Shown here piece after piece: positions 1 to 41,987 of a stretch of DNA of 41,987 nt (positions are counted from its first letter, which is position 1; every line of letters begins with the position of its first letter). The notes under the pieces are model-generated. The model worked only from the letters and a program-made list of their open reading frames with translations, had not been told where the DNA came from and searched no databases. The DNA lies in the NCBI RefSeq assembly GCF_025210435.1, contig NZ_JAOART010000120.1:1-41987 (forward strand), in the 5' to 3' direction. The translations under genes and the position numbers were made by a program. Origin of the DNA: Anaeromicrobium sp. (GTDB lineage Bacteria > Bacillota > Clostridia > Peptostreptococcales > Thermotaleaceae).

Positions 1-105
1 GCATAGGATGTTGTGACGTTCCAGGGTTCCAAAGATTTTCAATATATTTTCCTTCGTAGGCAAGTTACTGTATAAATAAAGCTTAGTGTTGATAAATCTA
101 TATAG
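1..105. repeat. Dispersed repeat relic, copy 1 (partial)
   Basis: About 105 bases are roughly 90% identical to 21148-21252, both starting at GCATAGGATGTTGTGACGTT. The copy is cut by the window start. In both copies the minus strand reads as a similar peptide around RHNILC and NLPT.ENILKIFG, so this may be the remains of a short coding sequence of a decayed mobile element. I do not recognise the family. Confidence 0.6.
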
Positions 106-33008: not shown

Positions 33009-33779
33009 TTATTTAATATTGTCCATGGCAGATTTAGCAAATTCAGTAGTAACTATTTTATCATAAGGAGCTCTTTTATCTAATTCTCCAGCCATCTCAA
33101 CTATATCCATCATGTGATTTAATCCTTCCTCTGTAAGAATCAAATCAGGTTTCCAAGTATCTTGAGCCTTGTATCTATTAACCACCTCTGTCAATATTTC
33201 CATATCTGCATCTGGGAATTGGGGAGATATGGCGGCAGCCACTTCTTCTGCTGAATGGTTCTCTACCCATTTCATTCCTTTATACACGCCGTTAGTGAAT
33301 TTTTGAATAATCTCAGGATTGTTTTCTATAAAACTCTTTTTCGCAGAATAACAAGTATATGGTATATAGCCACCTTCTTTACCGATTGACGCAACTATAT
33401 GTCCTGCACCTTCATTTTCCATCAAAGAAGCAACGGGCTCAAAGAGTGTTACAAAATCTCCTTCACCACCCTTAAAAGCTCCTGCCATCACAGAAAATTG
33501 TATATCTGTCCTAACATTTACATCTTTACCTGGGATTATATTGTTAGATTTTAAAACATATTCTAGGGTCATCTCAGGCATACCACCCTTTCGACCACCT
33601 ATAATTGTTTTTCCCTTAACCATATCAAAAGTAAATTTTTCCATAGGATTTCTAGCCACTAAAAATGATCCGTCCCGTTGGGTCAATTGGGCGAAGTTAA
33701 CTGCATAATCATCTTTACCCTTGTTATATACATACACAGAGGCTTCAGGTCCCATAAATCCAATGTCTACTTGATTAGA
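33009..33779 (-). pseudogene. NMT1/SsuA-like substrate-binding lipoprotein, C-terminal part (interrupted gene)
   Basis: Encodes the last 255 residues of a periplasmic-type binding protein: NQVDIGFMGPEASVYVY at the junction, then KGKTIIGGRKGGMPEMTLEY, DFVTLFEPVASLMENEGAG and VENHSAEEVAAAISPQFP. This is the family that binds nitrate/sulfonate/thiamine-precursor-like ligands for ABC importers. There is no signal peptide and the only start (GTG 33791) lies in foreign sequence. The missing first 79 codons, including signal and lipobox, are at 39979-40214, 6.2 kb away on the same strand. No frameshift or stop is present in this part, so the gene can be rebuilt by excision of the intervening element. 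Confidence 0.88.
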
Positions 33780-33802
33780 TGGGAAAGACACCTAAGGATA
33801 GG
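33755..33802. other. attL: left junction of the inserted element
   Basis: The crossover dinucleotide is GA at 33778-33779. To its left is lipoprotein-gene sequence (CTACTTGATTA); to its right is element sequence TGGGAAAGAC, then the arm ACCTAAGGATAGG at 33790-33802. That arm is the inverted partner of the arm at 39956-39968 (12 of 13 bases). Confidence 0.85.
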
Positions 33803-33874
33803 ATTTATGAATGGAATAGGGACAAATGTATTTTTCATATGTATTAATAGTAAAGGATAAAGGGGTGAGTCCAT

Positions 33875-34060
33875 ATGGATAATTGGGTAGATACACCCTA
33901 TGGGAAGAGATATAAAGAGGATTATAATAAAACCATGGCCTTTTTTATGACAGCTCCACAGGAGAAGGGGAAAAGAAATATACCAGATGATTTGATGGAT
34001 ATTATTTTGGAAGAATATATACATATAAAAAGACATTTAGTAAATAATAAGGAGGACTAA
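33875..34060 (+). CDS. Small protein next to the recombinase (61 aa), possible directionality factor
   Basis: A 61-residue charged soluble protein (MDNWVDTPYGKRYKEDYN at the start, HIKRHLVNNKED at the end). AAGGGGTGAG lies upstream of the ATG. It lies between attL and the recombinase and converges on it with 11 bases between stops. Recombination directionality factors of serine integrases are small, varied and often neighbours of the integrase; that role is only suggested by position. No family recognised. Confidence 0.5.
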   Translation: MDNWVDTPYGKRYKEDYNKTMAFFMTAPQEKGKRNIPDDLMDIILEEYIHIKRHLVNNKED

Positions 34061-34071
34061 ATGTCTTTAAA

Positions 34072-35556
34072 TCAAATTTTATAATAGATATGAATTTTCT
34101 TTTTTTCATAGGGCCTATCATTATGAAATATTTCTATGCGGTCAATAATCCTATTTAGGATTTTTTTCTTGGAGTGAAAGGAAAATGTATGAAAACTTTT
34201 ACTAAAGGATTTTATATAAATAATAAAATCTCCATCCTTTTGGTGATTTTCCATGTTATATAGTTTGGATTGTAATTCCTTTAAAAGTTTATTTTTTTCT
34301 TCCTTTTCTTTAGATAACTTTTCTCTTCTGTGGGTGAAATCCATTTCTGTAATTAAATCCTTTTCAATGAGATCAAATAGTTTATCCCTTCTCTTTGAAA
34401 TAAGATTAATACTTTCTTTCAATGTAGAAATGTCATTTTTCAGTATATATAGAGTATGATTTTTTTCTTTAATTAATTTTTCATTAATTTCATAAATCAT
34501 ACTTTGGGATGCTTCTAGGTTTTCAATGGTCTTTTGTATTTCCCTTATGATTACATTTTCAGATATGTAATGGTGAGTACATTTTCCATAGTGTTTGTAG
34601 CTTTTACAAGTAAAAAACACTTCTCCATTTTTTCTACTATTTCTAAGCATATATTCTTTACAATCTCCACAAAAGATGATACCAGCTAGTAAATTGGGGA
34701 CTTTAGAAGAGGTTCCACGGTTTAATTTTCTTCTACTCATATTTTCCTTTGATTTTAAAAAGATTTCCTTAGAAATTATAGGTTCATAGGTCCCCTTATA
34801 AGTGTTGTAGTCATGGGAATAAACTACTTTTTTCTTTCCATTCTTCTTTATATATTGTTGTCTTTTATGAACCATCTCCCCATAATAGGTGGGGTTTTTT
34901 AATATACGTACAATGGAAGAACTAGTAAAAGGTTTTTTATTCCTGGTTGTATATCCTAAATTATTAAGGTAAATGGCTATACTTCTAGTACCAATGTTTT
35001 TACTTCCACTAAGATGAAATATTTTTTTTATAATTTCAGATTCCTTTTTATTGATTTTTAAAGTTTTATCTTTAGTCAATTCATACCCTAAGGGAGGTCT
35101 TCCTCCTCTCCATTTACCCTCATGTAATATTTTTTTATGAGCAAGTTGAATTCTTTCACTTATGGAAGCTCTTTCAAATTCGGCAAAGGAGCCTAGCATA
35201 TTTAGCATTAATTTACCAGAGGCTGTGGAAGTATGGAAATTTTCTGTTTTTGACTTAAATATTATATTATTGTTTGTAAATGTTTCTATTATTTTCATCA
35301 AATCTGCCATGTCCCTAGAAAGTCTGTCTAATCTCCACACTAGTACTACATCATAATTTTTACAATCCTTTAATAATTTTTTCAAGGCAGGTCTGTCCAT
35401 TGTACTTGCAGAATAGCCTCCATCCGTATATATATTATAAATATCATAATGAAAGGCATGACAATAGGTTAATAATTCTTGTTTTTGGGCTCCTATGGAA
35501 TGGCCACCAGAAGCTTGTTCTTCTGTACTTACACGGAGATATAGGGCTGCTTTCAA
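34072..35556 (-). CDS. Large serine recombinase
   Basis: A 494-residue site-specific recombinase. Catalytic resolvase domain at residues 1-145: YLRVSTEEQ with the nucleophile S10, then VLVWRLDRLSRD and the AEFERASISERIQ helix that leads into DNA. A Recombinase domain follows (about 150-260, GKWRGGRPPLGYEL), then a zinc ribbon (GIIFCGDCKEYM and FFTCKSYKHYGKC) and a long coiled coil (about 355-450). This is the full integrase layout that acts on attP x attB and needs no host factor. TTG start at 35556 with GAGGTG eight bases upstream; a GTG at 35565 is part of that site. It is the element's own integrase/excisionase. Confidence 0.92.
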   Translation of the reverse strand: MKAALYLRVSTEEQASGGHSIGAQKQELLTYCHAFHYDIYNIYTDGGYSASTMDRPALKKLLKDCKNYDVVLVWRLDRLSRDMADLMKIIETFTNNNIIFKSKTENFHTSTASGKLMLNMLGSFAEFERASISERIQLAHKKILHEGKWRGGRPPLGYELTKDKTLKINKKESEIIKKIFHLSGSKNIGTRSIAIYLNNLGYTTRNKKPFTSSSIVRILKNPTYYGEMVHKRQQYIKKNGKKKVVYSHDYNTYKGTYEPIISKEIFLKSKENMSRRKLNRGTSSKVPNLLAGIIFCGDCKEYMLRNSRKNGEVFFTCKSYKHYGKCTHHYISENVIIREIQKTIENLEASQSMIYEINEKLIKEKNHTLYILKNDISTLKESINLISKRRDKLFDLIEKDLITEMDFTHRREKLSKEKEEKNKLLKELQSKLYNMENHQKDGDFIIYIKSFSKSFHTFSFHSKKKILNRIIDRIEIFHNDRPYEKKKIHIYYKI

Positions 35557-35652
35557 AAGAATCACCTCTTAAGCATATATACTAACACATATGCAAATAG
35601 TCATAATATTTATTACTAAATTTATAAAGTTATAATCATCTATTAAGAATGG

Positions 35653-35687
35653 TACCATATAATAGAAATCCTATCTATTATATGGTA
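35653..35687. promoter_or_regulatory. Perfect 14-bp inverted repeat in the divergent promoter region of the element
   Basis: TACCATATAATAGA (35653-35666) and TCTATTATATGGTA (35674-35687) are exact inverted repeats with a 7-base gap. It lies between the recombinase (minus) and phosphatase (plus) starts, with no T-run on either side, so an operator is more likely than a terminator. It could coordinate both transcripts. Confidence 0.6.
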
Positions 35688-35742
35688 ATATTAAAAAGGC
35701 TTGTAATTTTATAAGTCTTCAACAAAATAGGAGTGATATAGT

Positions 35743-37173
35743 ATGGAAGAAATATTTATACAAGATGAAGAAATAGATTTTAATAACTTAGACCTATTAA
35801 AAGTCATAATAAAAAATATCTCTCATATAGTAGCCGTATATGGGCTAGATAAGACTATTATGTTCCATAATGAGGCTGCTTATGAATTTTATAATGGAGA
35901 TAAAAATGAAATTAAGGGTAAAAGATGTTATGAAATGGTAAATAGAAATGAAGAATGTTTAGATTGTTTCTTTAATAAAGCCATGGAGACTAAAGAAATA
36001 ATAGAAGGAGAAAAATTTATTCCTGAAATAAAAAAACACATGAAATCTAAATATACTCCTGTATTAAATAAATCAGGAGAAGTAAGATTTGTTATTGTAC
36101 AATCAAAGGATATTACTCAAAAAAGGGAATTGGAAAAAAAGTTAGAAGAAAATGAAATAAGGTATAAAAAAATAGTAAATGTATTGCCTGATCCTGTGGT
36201 CATTACAGTGAATGGAAAGATTGTTTTTGGAAATGAAGTAGCCCATAAATATTTTTATGAACTTATTGGAAAGGACATATGTGAGCTTCTATCTGATTCT
36301 TCAAAAACTGCAAAAAAGAGACTTAATCAGATAGTTGAAAATAAAACAGACAAAGCTACCTTTGATTATAGGATTAATCTGGATAATAAACGTATAATTG
36401 ATGTGGAAGTGTGTTCAAATTATCTTATTTATCAAGGAAAACCAGCAGTTATGTCAATTCTTAGGGATATTACTGAAAGAAAAAAAGAATTAAATGCGGC
36501 TGCAAAAATTCAAAGGGGAATATTTGAAAAAAGTATTTCTCTATCAAATAAGATTAATGTGGAAACTCTTTATGTACCAGCAAAAACAGTTAGCGGAGAT
36601 TTTTTCTATATGGAGAAAATAAATGAGGATTTAATCCTTGGAATTATTGGAGATGTAAGTGGAAAAGGAATATCTGCAGCCCTTAGCATATCTGCATTTA
36701 ATGTATTATTCCATGAAGTGATTTTAAAGGAACAAAATCCATACGATATAATCAATCATCTGAATAAGAAGGTCATTGATTATTTGGGAGAAAGGTATGT
36801 TGCTGCATGTTGTTTTAGTCTTGATTTGAAAAAAAATGAAGCTAAAATAGCAGCTGCAGGTATTAATGAATTTGTACTTCAACATGGGAATACTACAATG
36901 GAAAAAAGAATTATTAAAGGACCTTTCCTAGGCATGTTTGAAGACAGCATATTTGATGAACAAACAATTCACTTTCACAGGGGAGACAAGTTTTATTTCT
37001 TTACTGATGGATTAGAATCCATACTCAATAACAAAGAAATTCGTAAAAAACATTTCGAAAAGGCTACACCTATTCATGTGAAAAAATACTTGAATAAATA
37101 TTTAAAGAATATATCTGACAATGTAGAAGGAATAAAAGATGATTGCACTTTATTATCATTAGAAATTAAATAA
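35743..37173 (+). CDS. PAS-PAS-PP2C protein phosphatase (RsbU/SpoIIE type)
   Basis: A 476-residue soluble phosphatase. PAS 1 (about 17-125) contains the cysteine set C62, C72 and C75 in KRCYEMVNRNEECLDCFF, which could bind a metal, heme or cluster or act as a redox switch. PAS 2 spans about 137-248 (VLPDPVVITVNGKIVF). The PP2C/SpoIIE domain (about 255-476) has VSGDFF (D285), GDVSGKG (D304) and GIKDDCTLL (D466, D467), so the metal-binding aspartates are intact. Such enzymes dephosphorylate a STAS anti-sigma antagonist; the partner is likely the STAS protein at 39616. First gene of the plus-strand block; the next ORF starts 16 bases on. Confidence 0.88.
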   Translation: MEEIFIQDEEIDFNNLDLLKVIIKNISHIVAVYGLDKTIMFHNEAAYEFYNGDKNEIKGKRCYEMVNRNEECLDCFFNKAMETKEIIEGEKFIPEIKKHMKSKYTPVLNKSGEVRFVIVQSKDITQKRELEKKLEENEIRYKKIVNVLPDPVVITVNGKIVFGNEVAHKYFYELIGKDICELLSDSSKTAKKRLNQIVENKTDKATFDYRINLDNKRIIDVEVCSNYLIYQGKPAVMSILRDITERKKELNAAAKIQRGIFEKSISLSNKINVETLYVPAKTVSGDFFYMEKINEDLILGIIGDVSGKGISAALSISAFNVLFHEVILKEQNPYDIINHLNKKVIDYLGERYVAACCFSLDLKKNEAKIAAAGINEFVLQHGNTTMEKRIIKGPFLGMFEDSIFDEQTIHFHRGDKFYFFTDGLESILNNKEIRKKHFEKATPIHVKKYLNKYLKNISDNVEGIKDDCTLLSLEIK

Positions 37174-37189
37174 AATAAGGAGCACAAAG

Positions 37190-37570
37190 ATGAAGAAAAG
37201 AGAATTTGTTTTGTACGATTTAACTGAACATAATAGGATTATTGAAGAAATAATTAAAGAATTAAATGCTTTTGAGTATTATTTTGATATAAAGCTAATT
37301 CTTACAGAGGCTTTGACCAATGCCTATAAGCATGGAAATAAAAATGACAATAAAAAGCCCATTTATTTGAGATATTTCTATAATAATAAGAATTTAACAT
37401 TTGAGATAGAAGATTCAGGATCTAATCATAAAAATATAACCATTCCTGATGAAATATCAGATAAAAACTTATTAAATACCTTTGGAAGGGGATTATTTCT
37501 TATTAAAAGTATGGCTGATAATGTAGAATCTAAAGGTAATATGTTAGTTATACAAAAATATCTAAATTAA
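37190..37570 (+). CDS. RsbW/SpoIIAB-like HATPase (anti-sigma factor or switch kinase)
   Basis: A 126-residue HATPase_c_2 protein. N box LILTEALTNAYKHGN, G1 box FEIEDSG, G2 box FGRGLFLIKSMADNV: all ATP-binding motifs of the RsbW/SpoIIAB group are present and the length is right. Family members phosphorylate a STAS partner and hold a sigma factor or another target. No sigma factor gene is in the element, so the target is either a host sigma factor or a different output. Lies between phosphatase and chemoreceptor in the same direction. Confidence 0.85.
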   Translation: MKKREFVLYDLTEHNRIIEEIIKELNAFEYYFDIKLILTEALTNAYKHGNKNDNKKPIYLRYFYNNKNLTFEIEDSGSNHKNITIPDEISDKNLLNTFGRGLFLIKSMADNVESKGNMLVIQKYLN

Positions 37571-37609
37571 AAAAATGAACAGCTTAAAAATTTAGGAAGG
37601 AGAATATCC

Positions 37610-39613
37610 ATGAAGATGAGCTTAAAAACCAAATTGATCTCAATGTTTTTTATATTTATTTCAGTTCCGCTTATTATTTTAGGAATTATATCTAGTAATA
37701 TGGCTTCAAATTCAATGGAACATTTGACTGAGGAAGAATTGAGGCAAATCACTGAAGATGCATCTAAAGCTATTAATCAGAGCATATATTCAGTGGATAA
37801 ATATGTACAAGTTTTAAGTCATAATAAGGATTTTGCTAATATTGCCATAGAAAATATTGAAGATGATTTTAAAGTATTTCAATATTTAAAAACTCTTCAA
37901 GAAGAAAACAGTGAGGAAATAGAAAAAATAATTATTACTGATAAATTTGGTAAGGGTGTTATTAGTAGTGATGATAAGAACTATAATGTGGATTTGAGTA
38001 ATCGAAGCTATGTGCAAAGTGCTTTAAAAGGTTCTAAATATATAAGTGAAGTAATAATATCTAAAGTTTCAAAAAACCCCATAATAGGAATAGCCTATCC
38101 ATTAAAGATTAATGATGAAATTGTAGGAACAATAACTGGAACAATTAAGTTTGAGAATGTATCTAAGCATGTTTCTCATATAAAAGTAGGGCAAAAGGGA
38201 TATGCCTATATGATAGATAAAAATGGATTATTTGTTTATCATCCTGAAAAAGAGAAGGTATTAGAAGAAAATATAAAAGATAGAGCTAACGACCAATTGA
38301 ACAAATTAATAGAAAGAATGGAATTAGGAAAAGAGGGAGAAGGTTATTATGAATATGAAGGAGAACGTAAATTCGTAAGATTTACCCCTTCTAATAAATG
38401 GATTGTGGCAGTAACGGCTGATTATGATGAATATATGGCTGTGGCAACAACTATTAAAAGAAATACATTTGTTATAACAGTGGTATCATTGATAATGGCA
38501 ATGTTTTTAGCCTACTCAATCACAACAAGGAACATAATAAATCCCATTAAAAAACTAGAAGAATTGATGATAAATGCAGGAAATGGGGATTTGACAGTTA
38601 AATCAAATATAACTACAAAGGATGAAATACAAACTCTAGGTGAATGTTTCAATGAAATGATAGAACATCAATCTAATGTAATAAGTCATGTTAGAAAAGG
38701 CGCAGAGGATTTAGCATCAGCATCACAAGAAGTTTCTGCTTCTACGGAAGAAGTAAGTGTATCTACTGAAGAAATTACATCTAATATACAGGAGGTTGCA
38801 GCTAATGCAGAAGAGCAAAACAATACTATAATTGAAACATCTGAAGTTTTAGTTCAACTTTCAAGTTTAATACAAATAGCTCAAATCAAAGCAACTAAAG
38901 CTAAAGATAATTCAAGATATAGTAAAATAGCTGCAGAAAAAGGAAGAAATAATGTTGAAAAAACAGTTGAAGCCATTGAAAATATAAATAAGGTATCAAC
39001 TGAGACGGCACATATATTAAAAGAATTAAATGAACTTTCCAACAAAGTTAGTGGAATTATTGAAACAATTAATAAAATTTCAGATCAAACAAATTTATTA
39101 GCATTAAATGCTGCCATTGAAGCCGCAAGGGCTGGAGAACATGGAAAAGGATTTACAGTGGTAGCAGATGAAGTTAGAAAGCTTTCAGAACAAACAAGTG
39201 TGGAGGCAAATGAAATAGGTTCTTTGGTAAATCAAATGGTAACTCAAATAAATGCTGCCGTTAGATCCATGAATTCAAGTAAGAGGGTAGTACAAAAGGG
39301 TGTAATTGTGGCAAATGAAACGGATGAATCATTTGTGAGTATTATAAATGCAGTGGAACAAATAGTAAATGATATTGAACAAATAGTAAATGTTACGAAG
39401 GATGAAGTGGCAAGTTCTGATCAAATAATAAATCTTATTGATGCTGTTGCAACTATTACTGAGACTACCGCAACAAATAGTGAAGAAGTGGCTAAATCAA
39501 CAGAAGAACAATCCTCCGTAATTGAAAATTTAGCAGCTAGTGCAGAAGAAACTAGCGCCATGGCTAATAGTTTAAATGATCTTGTAGTAAAATTTAAAAT
39601 TGGAGGAGAGTAA
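37610..39613 (+). CDS. Methyl-accepting chemotaxis protein with dCache sensor
   Basis: A 667-residue receptor. TM1 at about 9-28 ([18 protein letters not shown]), an external double-Cache domain (about 40-275; [14 protein letters not shown] and [17 protein letters not shown] are typical), TM2 at about 284-304, HAMP (about 305-358), then a coiled-coil signalling domain with the conserved tip [18 protein letters not shown] at about 492-510. There is no C-terminal NWETF-like tether. The family feeds CheA/CheW; in this neighbourhood it may instead, or also, drive the partner-switching proteins. The STAS gene starts two bases after its stop. Confidence 0.9.
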
Positions 39614-39615
39614 AA

Positions 39616-39894
39616 GTGAATACATCAAATATTATAATACCTAAAAATTTTGCAGTAGATGAGGCCTCTGATTTTAGAGAAGAAATAATTCTCTTAATCA
39701 ACAAAGGTGAAAGGGTCTTTACCCTTAATTTTAGTAAGTGTGAATTTATAGATAGTACGGGACTTGGCGTATTAGTATCAATATATAAAAAATGTGAAGA
39801 AGTAAATGGAGAGCTGAAACTTCATTCAATTAATTCACAAGTCATGAGGATTTTTCAATTAACAAGACTAGACAAAGTATTTAATATTAAATAA
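39616..39894 (+). CDS. STAS-domain anti-sigma factor antagonist (RsbV/SpoIIAA-like)
   Basis: A 92-residue single STAS domain. The phosphorylation loop FIDSTGLGVLVSIYKKC has S47 (followed by T48) where RsbW-type kinases act. Length is slightly short but complete. GTG start with GGAGGAG seven bases upstream, inside the same transcript as the chemoreceptor. It should be phosphorylated by the RsbW-like protein and dephosphorylated by the PP2C protein. A terminator follows at once. Confidence 0.88.
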   Translation: MNTSNIIIPKNFAVDEASDFREEIILLINKGERVFTLNFSKCEFIDSTGLGVLVSIYKKCEEVNGELKLHSINSQVMRIFQLTRLDKVFNIK

Positions 39895-39896
39895 TG

Positions 39897-39928
39897 AAAA
39901 AGCAAAGAGTGAATTCTTTGCTTTTTTC
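39897..39928 (+). terminator. Terminator of the element's plus-strand operon
   Basis: Perfect 12-bp stem AAAAAGCAAAGA/TCTTTGCTTTTT (39897-39908 with 39915-39926) with a T-run. It ends the operon just before attR. Confidence 0.85.
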
Positions 39929-39955
39929 CTTTATATATTAAAATCTATGTAAAAA

Positions 39956-40003
39956 CCTATCTTTAGGTATCATTATAGGATAATAAGGCAGTCATGGTTT
40001 TAT
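39956..40003. other. attR: right junction of the inserted element
   Basis: Arm CCTATCTTTAGGT (39956-39968), then TATCATTATAG-type element sequence up to the crossover GA at 39979-39980, then lipoprotein-gene sequence TAATAAGGCAGTCATGG. The rebuilt attP is 23 + GA + 23 bp with 14 of the outer 16 positions matching in inverted sense. Confidence 0.85.
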
Positions 40004-40214
40004 CTGCACCTTGACCATTAATTATTTCTAATTCTATGCCCTCTTCTTCAAAAAAACCATTAGTTATGGCCACATATTGAGGTGCGTAGAATACAGAGTG
40101 AGTAACTTCAGCTAACCGAACAGTAGTTAGGCCTTTGTCATCACAACCAATAGATGCTATTGATATGATTAGTAATAAGGTGAGAAAAAGAGCTGTTTTC
40201 TTAAACTTTTTCAC
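39979..40214 (-). pseudogene. NMT1/SsuA-like substrate-binding lipoprotein, N-terminal part (interrupted gene)
   Basis: Encodes the first 79 residues: basic start and hydrophobic signal (MKKFKKTALFLTLLLIISIA), lipobox with C24 in SIGCDD, then the binding-protein opening VRLAEVTHSVFYAPQYVAI, GFFEEEGIELEI and GADKTMTALLS. After the serine the frame enters the element, adds four residues and stops at 39963. As it stands this would make only a short lipopeptide. The rest of the gene is at 33009-33779. ATG start with GGGGGGA upstream. No permease or ATPase gene is adjacent in the window. Confidence 0.88.
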
Positions 40215-40302
40215 AAAAATCCCCCCTAATAAGAATTTTCCTATAATATTAATATATTCACATGGATTATAAAGGTTACTATAGATTTCGTATTTATAAA
40301 CC

Positions 40303-41619: not shown

Positions 41620-41838
41620 GGAAAACATATATCTGGGATATGCGTGTAGCTCTTATTTTGAACCTACAGTTAAGAAACGGGAGTTCAAAATTTAGATGTG
41701 AAATTGACTTATGAGACCGAATCGGCAAGGACAAAGAAATATCTGTGAGGGCACCCACCTATCATAGAGATAGGTATCAAAATTAGAGTAGCGGTATTTT
41801 GGAATATTAAAAGAGAGGCATGTGCCTCTCTTTTTTGG
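41620..41838 (+). ncRNA. Structured noncoding RNA of about 220 nt, candidate 6S RNA
   Basis: There is a near-consensus promoter, a clear terminator and no ORF between them. Inside, TTTTGAAC pairs with GTTCAAAA around CTACAGTTAAGAAACGGGA; CCTATC pairs with GATAGG near 41760; and the region after the start (GCGTGTAGCTC) pairs loosely with GAGTAGCGGTAT near the 3' end, giving a long closing stem. Size, strong promoter and closing stem fit 6S RNA (ssrS) of clostridia; a raiA-type RNA is an alternative. I cannot run a covariance model, so the family is a guess. Confidence 0.5.
41811..41836 (+). terminator. Terminator of the small RNA
   Basis: Perfect 10-bp stem AAGAGAGGCA/TGCCTCTCTT (41811-41820 with 41823-41832), then six Ts. 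Confidence 0.85.
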
Positions 41839-41846
41839 GTTTATAT

Positions 41847-41987
41847 GAGCGTGCCCAGCAAAGCTGTAATTTGCTTACTGGTGAAAGTCCAGTCTAGGTA
41901 GTTGCCAAGAAGCCTAGTAGCTATAAGACCAGCGTTATTAGAGATAGTAGCGTTGAAGCGTTTTGAAAATGTGCCTTTATGGTGCTA
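41847..41987 (+). mobile_element. Group II intron, 5' part (runs off the window)
   Basis: From about GAGCGTGCCCAGC the sequence has the look of group II intron domain I: GTGCCCAGC, then CTGGTGAAAGTCCAG, then GAAGCCTAGTAGC. It begins about 11 bases after the T-run of a Rho-independent terminator, the usual target of class IIC introns. The reverse transcriptase and the 3' domains would lie beyond 41987. The exact first base is uncertain. Confidence 0.65.

Follow-up and report, generated by a model that had tools for sequence, protein, structure and literature searches.

An NMT1/SsuA-like binding-lipoprotein gene split by a serine-recombinase insertion: a probable skin-type element in a recurrently targeted transporter system

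The DNA analyzed here (the window) is a stretch of 41,987 nucleotides (nt) that makes up one entire contig (NZ_JAOART010000120.1; G000:C76 in our collection) of the genome of an Anaeromicrobium species, G000. On its minus strand lies a gene for an NMT1/SsuA-like binding lipoprotein that is split cleanly in two by an inserted element of 6,201 bp. The parts are arranged as follows.

33009..33780, minus strand: 3' half of the binding-protein gene, with the remaining 255 codons and the stop (from orthologue alignment and Pfam)
33778..39981: insertion of 6,201 bp with a GAT (plus strand) common to both ends
39979..40214, minus strand: 5' half of the binding-protein gene, with a GTG start, a signal peptide and lipobox (by eye) and the first 79 codons, the 79th being completed across the join

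Pfam finds NMT1 in each half separately, and NMT1_2 additionally in the 3' half. Both ends of the insertion carry the same trinucleotide, GAT on the plus strand (ATC in the sense of the gene), at 33778-33780 and 39979-39981, which sets the size of the element at 6,201 bp; GA is probably the central dinucleotide of the core. Candidate joins were generated by script at words of 2 to 7 bases common to the two end regions. Joining at ATC yields 334 codons, including the stretch TALLSNQVDIGFMGPEAS, and matches intact orthologues in length and register; the other in-frame joins printed by the script gain or lose residues. An original prediction, made from the letters of the window, had described one same-strand receptor gene lying in two halves 6.2 kb apart, restorable in frame to a normal-length protein of 334 residues. 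Both points stand.

The split is not a slip of assembly, since the window is a whole contig and the identical site is split in three further genomes (G001, G014 and G016), in one of them on a single contig. The same split in independent genomes rules out an assembly artefact. Two unrelated neighboring genes are likewise ruled out, both halves aligning to one orthologue with register and length kept, and so is intron splicing: the Rfam intron match of the window falls outside the element, at 41875-41987.

The junctions of the element and the genes next to them are listed below. Recombinases at the insertion site of the window (site A) are referred to as LSR-A.

39955..39981, minus strand: attachment site bordering the 5' half, consisting of the core and an inner inverted arm (ACCTAAAGATAGG); the arm matches the opposite end in inverted orientation
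33778..33805, minus strand: attachment site bordering the 3' half, likewise consisting of the core and an inner inverted arm (CCTATCCTTAGGT)
34072..35565, minus strand: large serine recombinase (LSR) of 497 amino acids (aa), with Resolvase, Recombinase and zinc-ribbon domains
33875..34060, plus strand: 61-aa open reading frame (ORF), candidate recombination directionality factor, kept in all four LSR-A elements
33816..33844, plus strand: sigma-E-like promoter of the small ORF (ATA, 17 nt, CATATGTAT), found by eye

When the inverted arms at the inner ends of the element (ACCTAAAGATAGG and CCTATCCTTAGGT) were compared with shuffled sequences, none of 2000 shuffles scored as well. The LSR, which matches PHROG 95 integrase, is complete. 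The 61-aa ORF adjoins the 3' junction and has an isoelectric point (pI) of 5.6. A hidden Markov model search of the ORFs of the loci then assembled for comparison recovered a 58- to 61-aa version in four of four LSR-A elements, the next match having E = 1; no family in Pfam, NCBIfam or PHROGs was found for it. Its ratio of nonsynonymous to synonymous substitution rates (dN/dS), 0.26-0.50 over 50 codons in four pairs, makes it appear coding and not tightly constrained. The ATA-17-CATATGTAT arrangement precedes it in three of the four elements (G000, G001 and G016) and is altered in that of G014. The LSR and the 61-aa ORF together may form a minimal excision kit. No phage, transposase or conjugation/relaxase families were found among the six proteins of the element that were scanned, and a search of viral contigs with the LSR as query gave no match. 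A prophage was rejected on the lack of phage structural or replication genes among the element ORFs scanned, and an integrative conjugative or mobilizable element on the lack of relaxase and conjugation genes among the same six proteins. At the far end of the contig, the Rfam match mentioned above is the start of a group II intron RNA (RF02003); a 6S RNA lies next to it, at 41627-41809.

The interruption is not peculiar to this genome. An order-wide search of 394 genomes, with an intact 339-aa orthologue as query and matches listed to E ~1e-18, returned 118 matching genomes. By hand count among the matches listed, 103 had an orthologue-level match, intact in 79, split in 20 and partial or at a contig edge in four (G098, G107, G210 and G378); the remaining 15 had weak paralogues only. 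Whether relatives ever carry the gene whole was a point on which the original prediction was to stand or fall, and they do. The splits, among the same matches, fall at about residue 85 (site A, four genomes), 178 (site D, 11), 193 (site C, three) and 250 (site B, four). This amounts to 22 insertions in 20 genomes, because two sites are occupied in each of G016 (A and B) and G068 (C and B). Sites A to D each have their own core and arms, and inverted arms were present in all ten of the junction pairs tested among the 22 insertions, with 0-16 of 2000 shuffles as good. All the split genomes except G120, for which none was found, have an LSR adjoining one half (19 of 20); the halves lie on two contigs in three (G120, G159 and G073). 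In a class-wide search, 142 of 391 genomes had a match at an E value of 1e-30 or lower; outside the order, the genes matched were mostly full-length. Four matches in family f51 (G632, G650, G680 and G697) begin at residues 69-75. In G632 the other half was found, with an LSR within the 7-kb insert, and in G650 genes judged phage-like by eye stand ahead of the 3' part. Family f51 thus provides a fifth insertion position, at about residue 72. Phage-like genes, again by eye, occur in the other-site elements of G174 and G650.

As a rough control, weak paralogues (at most 32% identity) were inspected in 99 genomes, rows judged to be orthologue pieces from G098 and G029 being left out. A short frame was seen in 1 of 88 rows, in a fragmented assembly, as against 20 split among the 99 orthologues scored as split or intact (Fisher p = 1.4e-5). 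Orthologues and paralogues were listed from different sets of genomes (394 and 99, respectively). The p value is a guide only, since phylogenetic independence does not hold among the rows and a paralogue that is split would be harder to detect. Two observations on these loci may be added. The site-B elements of G016 and G068 (L051 4114-5214; L055 18575-19687) carry a GerAB-type Spore_permease gene, of a spore-germination family. In G029 (L060 3186-16528; L061 1771-3016), an intact gene is followed over about 25 kb by at least three partial 3' copies starting near residue 190 and by decayed remnants, as though elements had carried 3' ends in or left them there.

The partner genes of the transporter are targets as well. 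In the window the binding-protein gene is an orphan, the ATPase and permease genes lying on another contig; their order is ATPase, permease, binding protein in G120 and binding protein, ATPase, permease in three f51 loci (L246-L248; partners named by eye). The best match in G000 to the G120 ATPase is itself split (G000:C119:119843-120448, 60% identity, and 58668-58841), its pieces lying about 61 kb apart and having a 13-bp core in common. The 3' piece has an LSR next to it, the 5' piece a LexA-like gene (by eye), and the permease gene follows intact. Counted by hand in 99 genomes, the ATPase match ends at residue 191-203 of 250 in 13, at residue 171 in two (G013 and G060), and is full-length in 23, G001 having both the first form and the last. 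Both ATPase pieces with an LSR between them are found within one stretch in G066, G098, G088, G043 and G013, and across stretches in others. The permease gene is split in G068, with an LSR between the pieces, and in G011, across contigs. The LSRs of G011 and G013 had been given the provisional label "perm?" in the tree described below; that of G013 lies between two ATPase pieces, at a site near residue 180, and that of G011 is tied to no junction. Extra 5' copies of the ATPase gene were noted in G001, where one adjoins the intact copy, G014 and G016 (L224 708-1490 and 10225-10902; L209; L211), and in G013 (L245 6728-19438) a whole permease gene is accompanied by two additional 3' copies (residues 164-279), which begin where the G068 permease is split.

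The sporulation sigma-factor gene sigK is also affected. It is in pieces in 13 of 17 genomes of the same family (TIGR02846, hand count), and two pieces, separated by one LSR, were detected in G000, another LSR lying past the second of them. Elsewhere in G000, a serine recombinase beside a 291-aa piece resembling the C-terminal part of MurA (by eye; L007 251-2793, G000:C109) possibly marks another interrupted gene.

A candidate promoter may link the binding-protein gene to sporulation.

40251..40279, minus strand: sigma-K-like promoter of the binding-protein gene (GTAAC, 16 nt, AATATATT), 36 nt upstream of the start

The motif GTAAC-15..17-[CA]ATAT[AT][AT]T occurs upstream of 36 of 108 binding-protein loci, the window included, and of 10 of 1623 other ORFs. 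These first controls contained 36 binding-protein homologues; after sorting by BLAST, the motif preceded 44 of 144 homologues and 2 of 1587 others, a ytlC-like ATPase accounting for one of these. The transporter, with an NMT1/SsuA-like lipoprotein and ATPase and permease partners, resembles YtlA/C/D. In the excerpts of the literature on which this and all later citations rest, ytlA, ytlC and ytlD are listed in the sigma-K regulon of Bacillus subtilis (PMC3416734). In Clostridioides difficile, CD1927 (ytlC) and CD1891 ("Fragment of ABC-type transport system") stand at 0.08 in a sigK mutant and each has a sigma-K promoter, described for this organism as AC plus CATATAAT; the permease CD1904 stands at 0.13 (PMC3789822). 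In genus g44 of our collection a permease, a split binding protein and a gene resembling an extracytoplasmic function sigma factor are found in an order that fits the C. difficile CD numbering. Genus g44 is presumably Clostridioides, and CD1887 presumably csfU. Altogether, these data suggest that the binding-protein gene may belong to the sporulation program of the mother cell.

We consider it probable that the 6.2-kb insertion is a gene-intervening element of the skin type and that its excision in the mother cell rebuilds a late-sporulation transporter gene. One crossover between attP and attB, catalyzed by the LSR, would have placed the element in the binding-lipoprotein gene of a YtlACD-like importer. 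In growing cells the gene would be both silent and split, and the split would cost little because its sigma-K-type promoter would be active only in the mother cell. During sporulation a directionality factor, for which the 61-aa ORF behind its sigma-E-like promoter is the best candidate, would turn the LSR to excision; the element would leave as a circle, and the 334-codon gene would be restored just when sigma-K becomes active. Such a loss would not be inherited, as the mother cell dies and the spore retains the element. Different LSR lineages might repeatedly settle in the transporter genes and in sigK because both are safe, mother-cell-only homes. The element is likely to be precise and reversible, and the "switch on an ABC receptor gene" of the original prediction can likely be narrowed to sporulation and the mother cell, given the sigma-K-like promoter, the split sigK in the same genome and the homologues in published sigma-K regulons. 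Recurrent targeting at several positions, the split partner ATPase in the same genome and a conserved small ORF as candidate directionality factor go beyond that prediction.

The grouping of the recombinases bears on why these genes are struck. In a maximum-likelihood tree of 56 LSRs, ten target groups require 10 label changes (minimum 9; mean after shuffling, 37.8). The LSRs of sites A, B and C form one clade each (100/100), and those of site D need two changes. Site C and D recombinases group with sigK LSRs of the distal sigK site, and recombinases from site B and the main ATPase site with sigK LSRs of the proximal one. Closest to LSR-A are a permease LSR, an LSR from a second ATPase position and an LSR whose target is unclear (99/91). 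As the program warns of long branches meeting deep in the tree, firm conclusions are limited to the grouping by site. This clustering is what one would expect if ancestral attB sequences in these genes, kept or slightly shifted, made them hotspots regardless of mother-cell expression. We regard this explanation as quite improbable: the binding-protein sites are spread over the gene (at about residues 72, 85, 178, 193 and 250), sites A to D differ in core and arms, and related LSRs strike genes as unrelated as sigK and the ATPase gene. The property common to the targets is likely to be late expression in the mother cell.

Comparison of the site-A elements gives an indication of age. The LSRs at this site in G001, G016 and G014 are 81%, 72% and 68% identical to that of the window. 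The G001 element has the same four cargo genes as the window element plus an acetyltransferase-like ORF. Synonymous divergence (dS) between G000 and G001 is 0.39-0.75 for the element genes and 0.41-0.50 for the gene halves. Since site and cargo are shared and the dS values are alike, one insertion probably predates both genomes. Over that time dN/dS has been 0.068 in the 3' half and 0.158 in the 5' half; three intact orthologue pairs gave 0.022 (with saturated dS), 0.109 and 0.160. Both halves are under purifying selection, as the original prediction implied in stating that neither had decayed, and the values fit halves still selected after the shared insertion. They are at odds with ordinary insertional inactivation, whereby the element would occupy a conserved attB in a dispensable gene and rarely or never leave, the halves looking fresh because little time has passed. 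Many LSR elements do reside in host genes without regulated excision, and damaged or rearranged copies, detailed below for G211, G007 and the G066 permease, are what inactivation would produce. Still, halves kept in frame at dN/dS of 0.07-0.16 since an insertion that probably predates the two genomes, and insertions that recur at five points of the binding-protein gene, in either partner gene and in genomes whose sigK is split, would not be expected of a random dispensable gene. We judge inactivation unlikely.

The bulk of the element consists of four cargo genes on the strand opposite to the LSR.

35743..37173, plus strand: PAS-PAS-SpoIIE-type phosphatase, 476 aa
37190..37570, plus strand: RsbW/SpoIIAB-like HATPase, 126 aa
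37610..39613, plus strand: dCache-HAMP methyl-accepting chemotaxis protein (MCP), 667 aa
39616..39894, plus strand: STAS anti-sigma-antagonist-like protein, 92 aa

The elements of G014 and G016 are smaller, about 3.7 kb, and consist of an LSR and a 512-aa MCP-dCache protein. Pfam reports the MCP signaling domain in G000, G014 and G016, and the G001 protein is 85% identical to that of G000. A chemoreceptor with this domain is therefore present in each of the four LSR-A elements, in two architectures, with dCache N-terminal or C-terminal (window 34072-39894; L049 4199-6202; L050 2472-4010; L051 6025-7563). Such cargo, and the partner-switching module of the window and G001 elements, lend some color to a vegetative on/off switch, in which the receptor and the SpoIIE/RsbW/STAS proteins might steer the element so that uptake is toggled in part of a growing or starved population. 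LSRs, however, need a directionality factor for excision and reintegrate poorly in its presence, and the sigma-K-like promoter, together with the published sigma-K control of homologues, makes vegetative expression unlikely. We hold such a switch to be very improbable. A broader version of the mother-cell reading is rather doubtful: the whole late-sporulation importer (binding protein and ATPase) and sigK would be sealed by insertions and unlocked by coordinated excisions in one mother cell, with the receptor and SpoIIE/RsbW/STAS cargo feeding a signal into the sporulation decision or into excision of the element itself.

Several points weigh against this mother-cell reading. That the element leaves, when it would do so, what the 61-aa ORF does and which sigma factors act are all inferred from sequence, and the resemblance to YtlA/C/D is one of protein family and of partner genes. 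The GTAAC motif was chosen post hoc, from k-mer counts and by eye, and then counted; it is absent before 100 of 144 binding-protein homologues and present before only 1 of 69 ytlC-like ATPases. The strict sigma-K motif AC-N15..17-CATAnnnTA is not enriched (2 of 108 loci as against 29 of 1626 ORFs), and the published form, AC-N15..17-CATATAAT, precedes 3 of 108 as against 11 of 1623. At the G000 ATPase junction inverted arms were not seen, 1746 of 2000 shuffles being as good, perhaps because the crossover point is unplaced within the 13-bp core. A third and last sigK piece was not found in G000, where the contig soon ends. LSR-A forms a separate clade, not nested among the sigK LSRs, although such nesting is no strict requirement for a skin-type element. 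In some hosts the system looks damaged or beyond excision: the G066 permease lies in two overlapping frames and the 3' piece of G211 starts late. G007 has its ATPase halves (L218 and L219) on opposite strands, separated by about 1.07 Mb, an arrangement from which simple excision could not rebuild the gene. The extra 3' copies in G029 are not accounted for by a skin-type model.

Elements of this general kind are known. Like the skin elements in sigK of B. subtilis and of C. difficile (skinCd), the window element is an LSR element that splits a gene with mother-cell expression, in our case a predicted one, and has a short core with inverted arms. In relatives, sigK LSRs occupy the two large clades that also hold the LSRs of sites B to D and the main ATPase site. 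There is also a small directionality factor, CD1234 in skinCd, with which our 61-aa candidate (pI 5.6) may be compared; CD1234 is listed under sigma-E (PMC3789822) and has 53 aa and a pI of 4.9 (PMC10747680). In contrast to skin, an ABC transporter is targeted here, with binding protein, ATPase and permease all struck in one or another genome, the ORFs of the window element that were scanned include no phage genes, and excision is predicted from sequence. Other sporulation genes split by LSR or prophage-like elements are gerE of Bacillus cereus (by gin), spoVFB (vfbin), yabG (yin) and spsM (SPbeta) (PMC5595907, PMC10747680). Of these, gin is also a non-phage element, although it is 28.6 kb long and has three LSRs. 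The excerpted accounts of all four describe one element per gene, whereas here there are up to two per gene, and partner genes are hit too. Tn5397 (TndX) of C. difficile likewise uses a large serine recombinase with a central GA at its target (PMC4430133), but it is conjugative, and no conjugation genes were found among the scanned ORFs of the window element. The closest parallel in pattern may be the heterocyst elements of cyanobacteria (in nifD, nifH, nifK, hupL and fdxN), where several positions or elements per gene, one pathway and a terminal cell are likewise involved; 87 interrupted genes in 22 orthologue groups are reported, ten genes having multiple elements (PMC4874684). Phylum, cell type and target all differ, and the likeness is one of analogy only.

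The intervened sporulation genes named in the excerpts are sigK, spsM, spoVFB, gerE and yabG (PMC10747680), and in addition spoVR. Within the open-licence PMC literature we recognized no paper on this transporter (ytlA/C/D, CD1891/CD1904) as the target of an intervening element, in agreement with the original prediction, which knew of no such target. Elements of this kind have been described before. New, as far as seen, are the system targeted, its multiple insertion sites and a compact, non-phage element bearing signaling cargo.

In this group of bacteria, then, a transporter of unknown substrate is targeted at five binding-protein, two ATPase and one permease positions by several LSR lineages. 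The findings offer a resource of many LSRs whose attachment sites are mapped within a small set of genes, along with a compact candidate directionality factor, and give reason to revisit the sigma-K-dependent gene annotated as a "fragment" in C. difficile. The likeness to the heterocyst nif genes suggests that terminal cell types may be refuges for mobile DNA, and the record of insertions might be read as a marker of genes used only in the mother cell.

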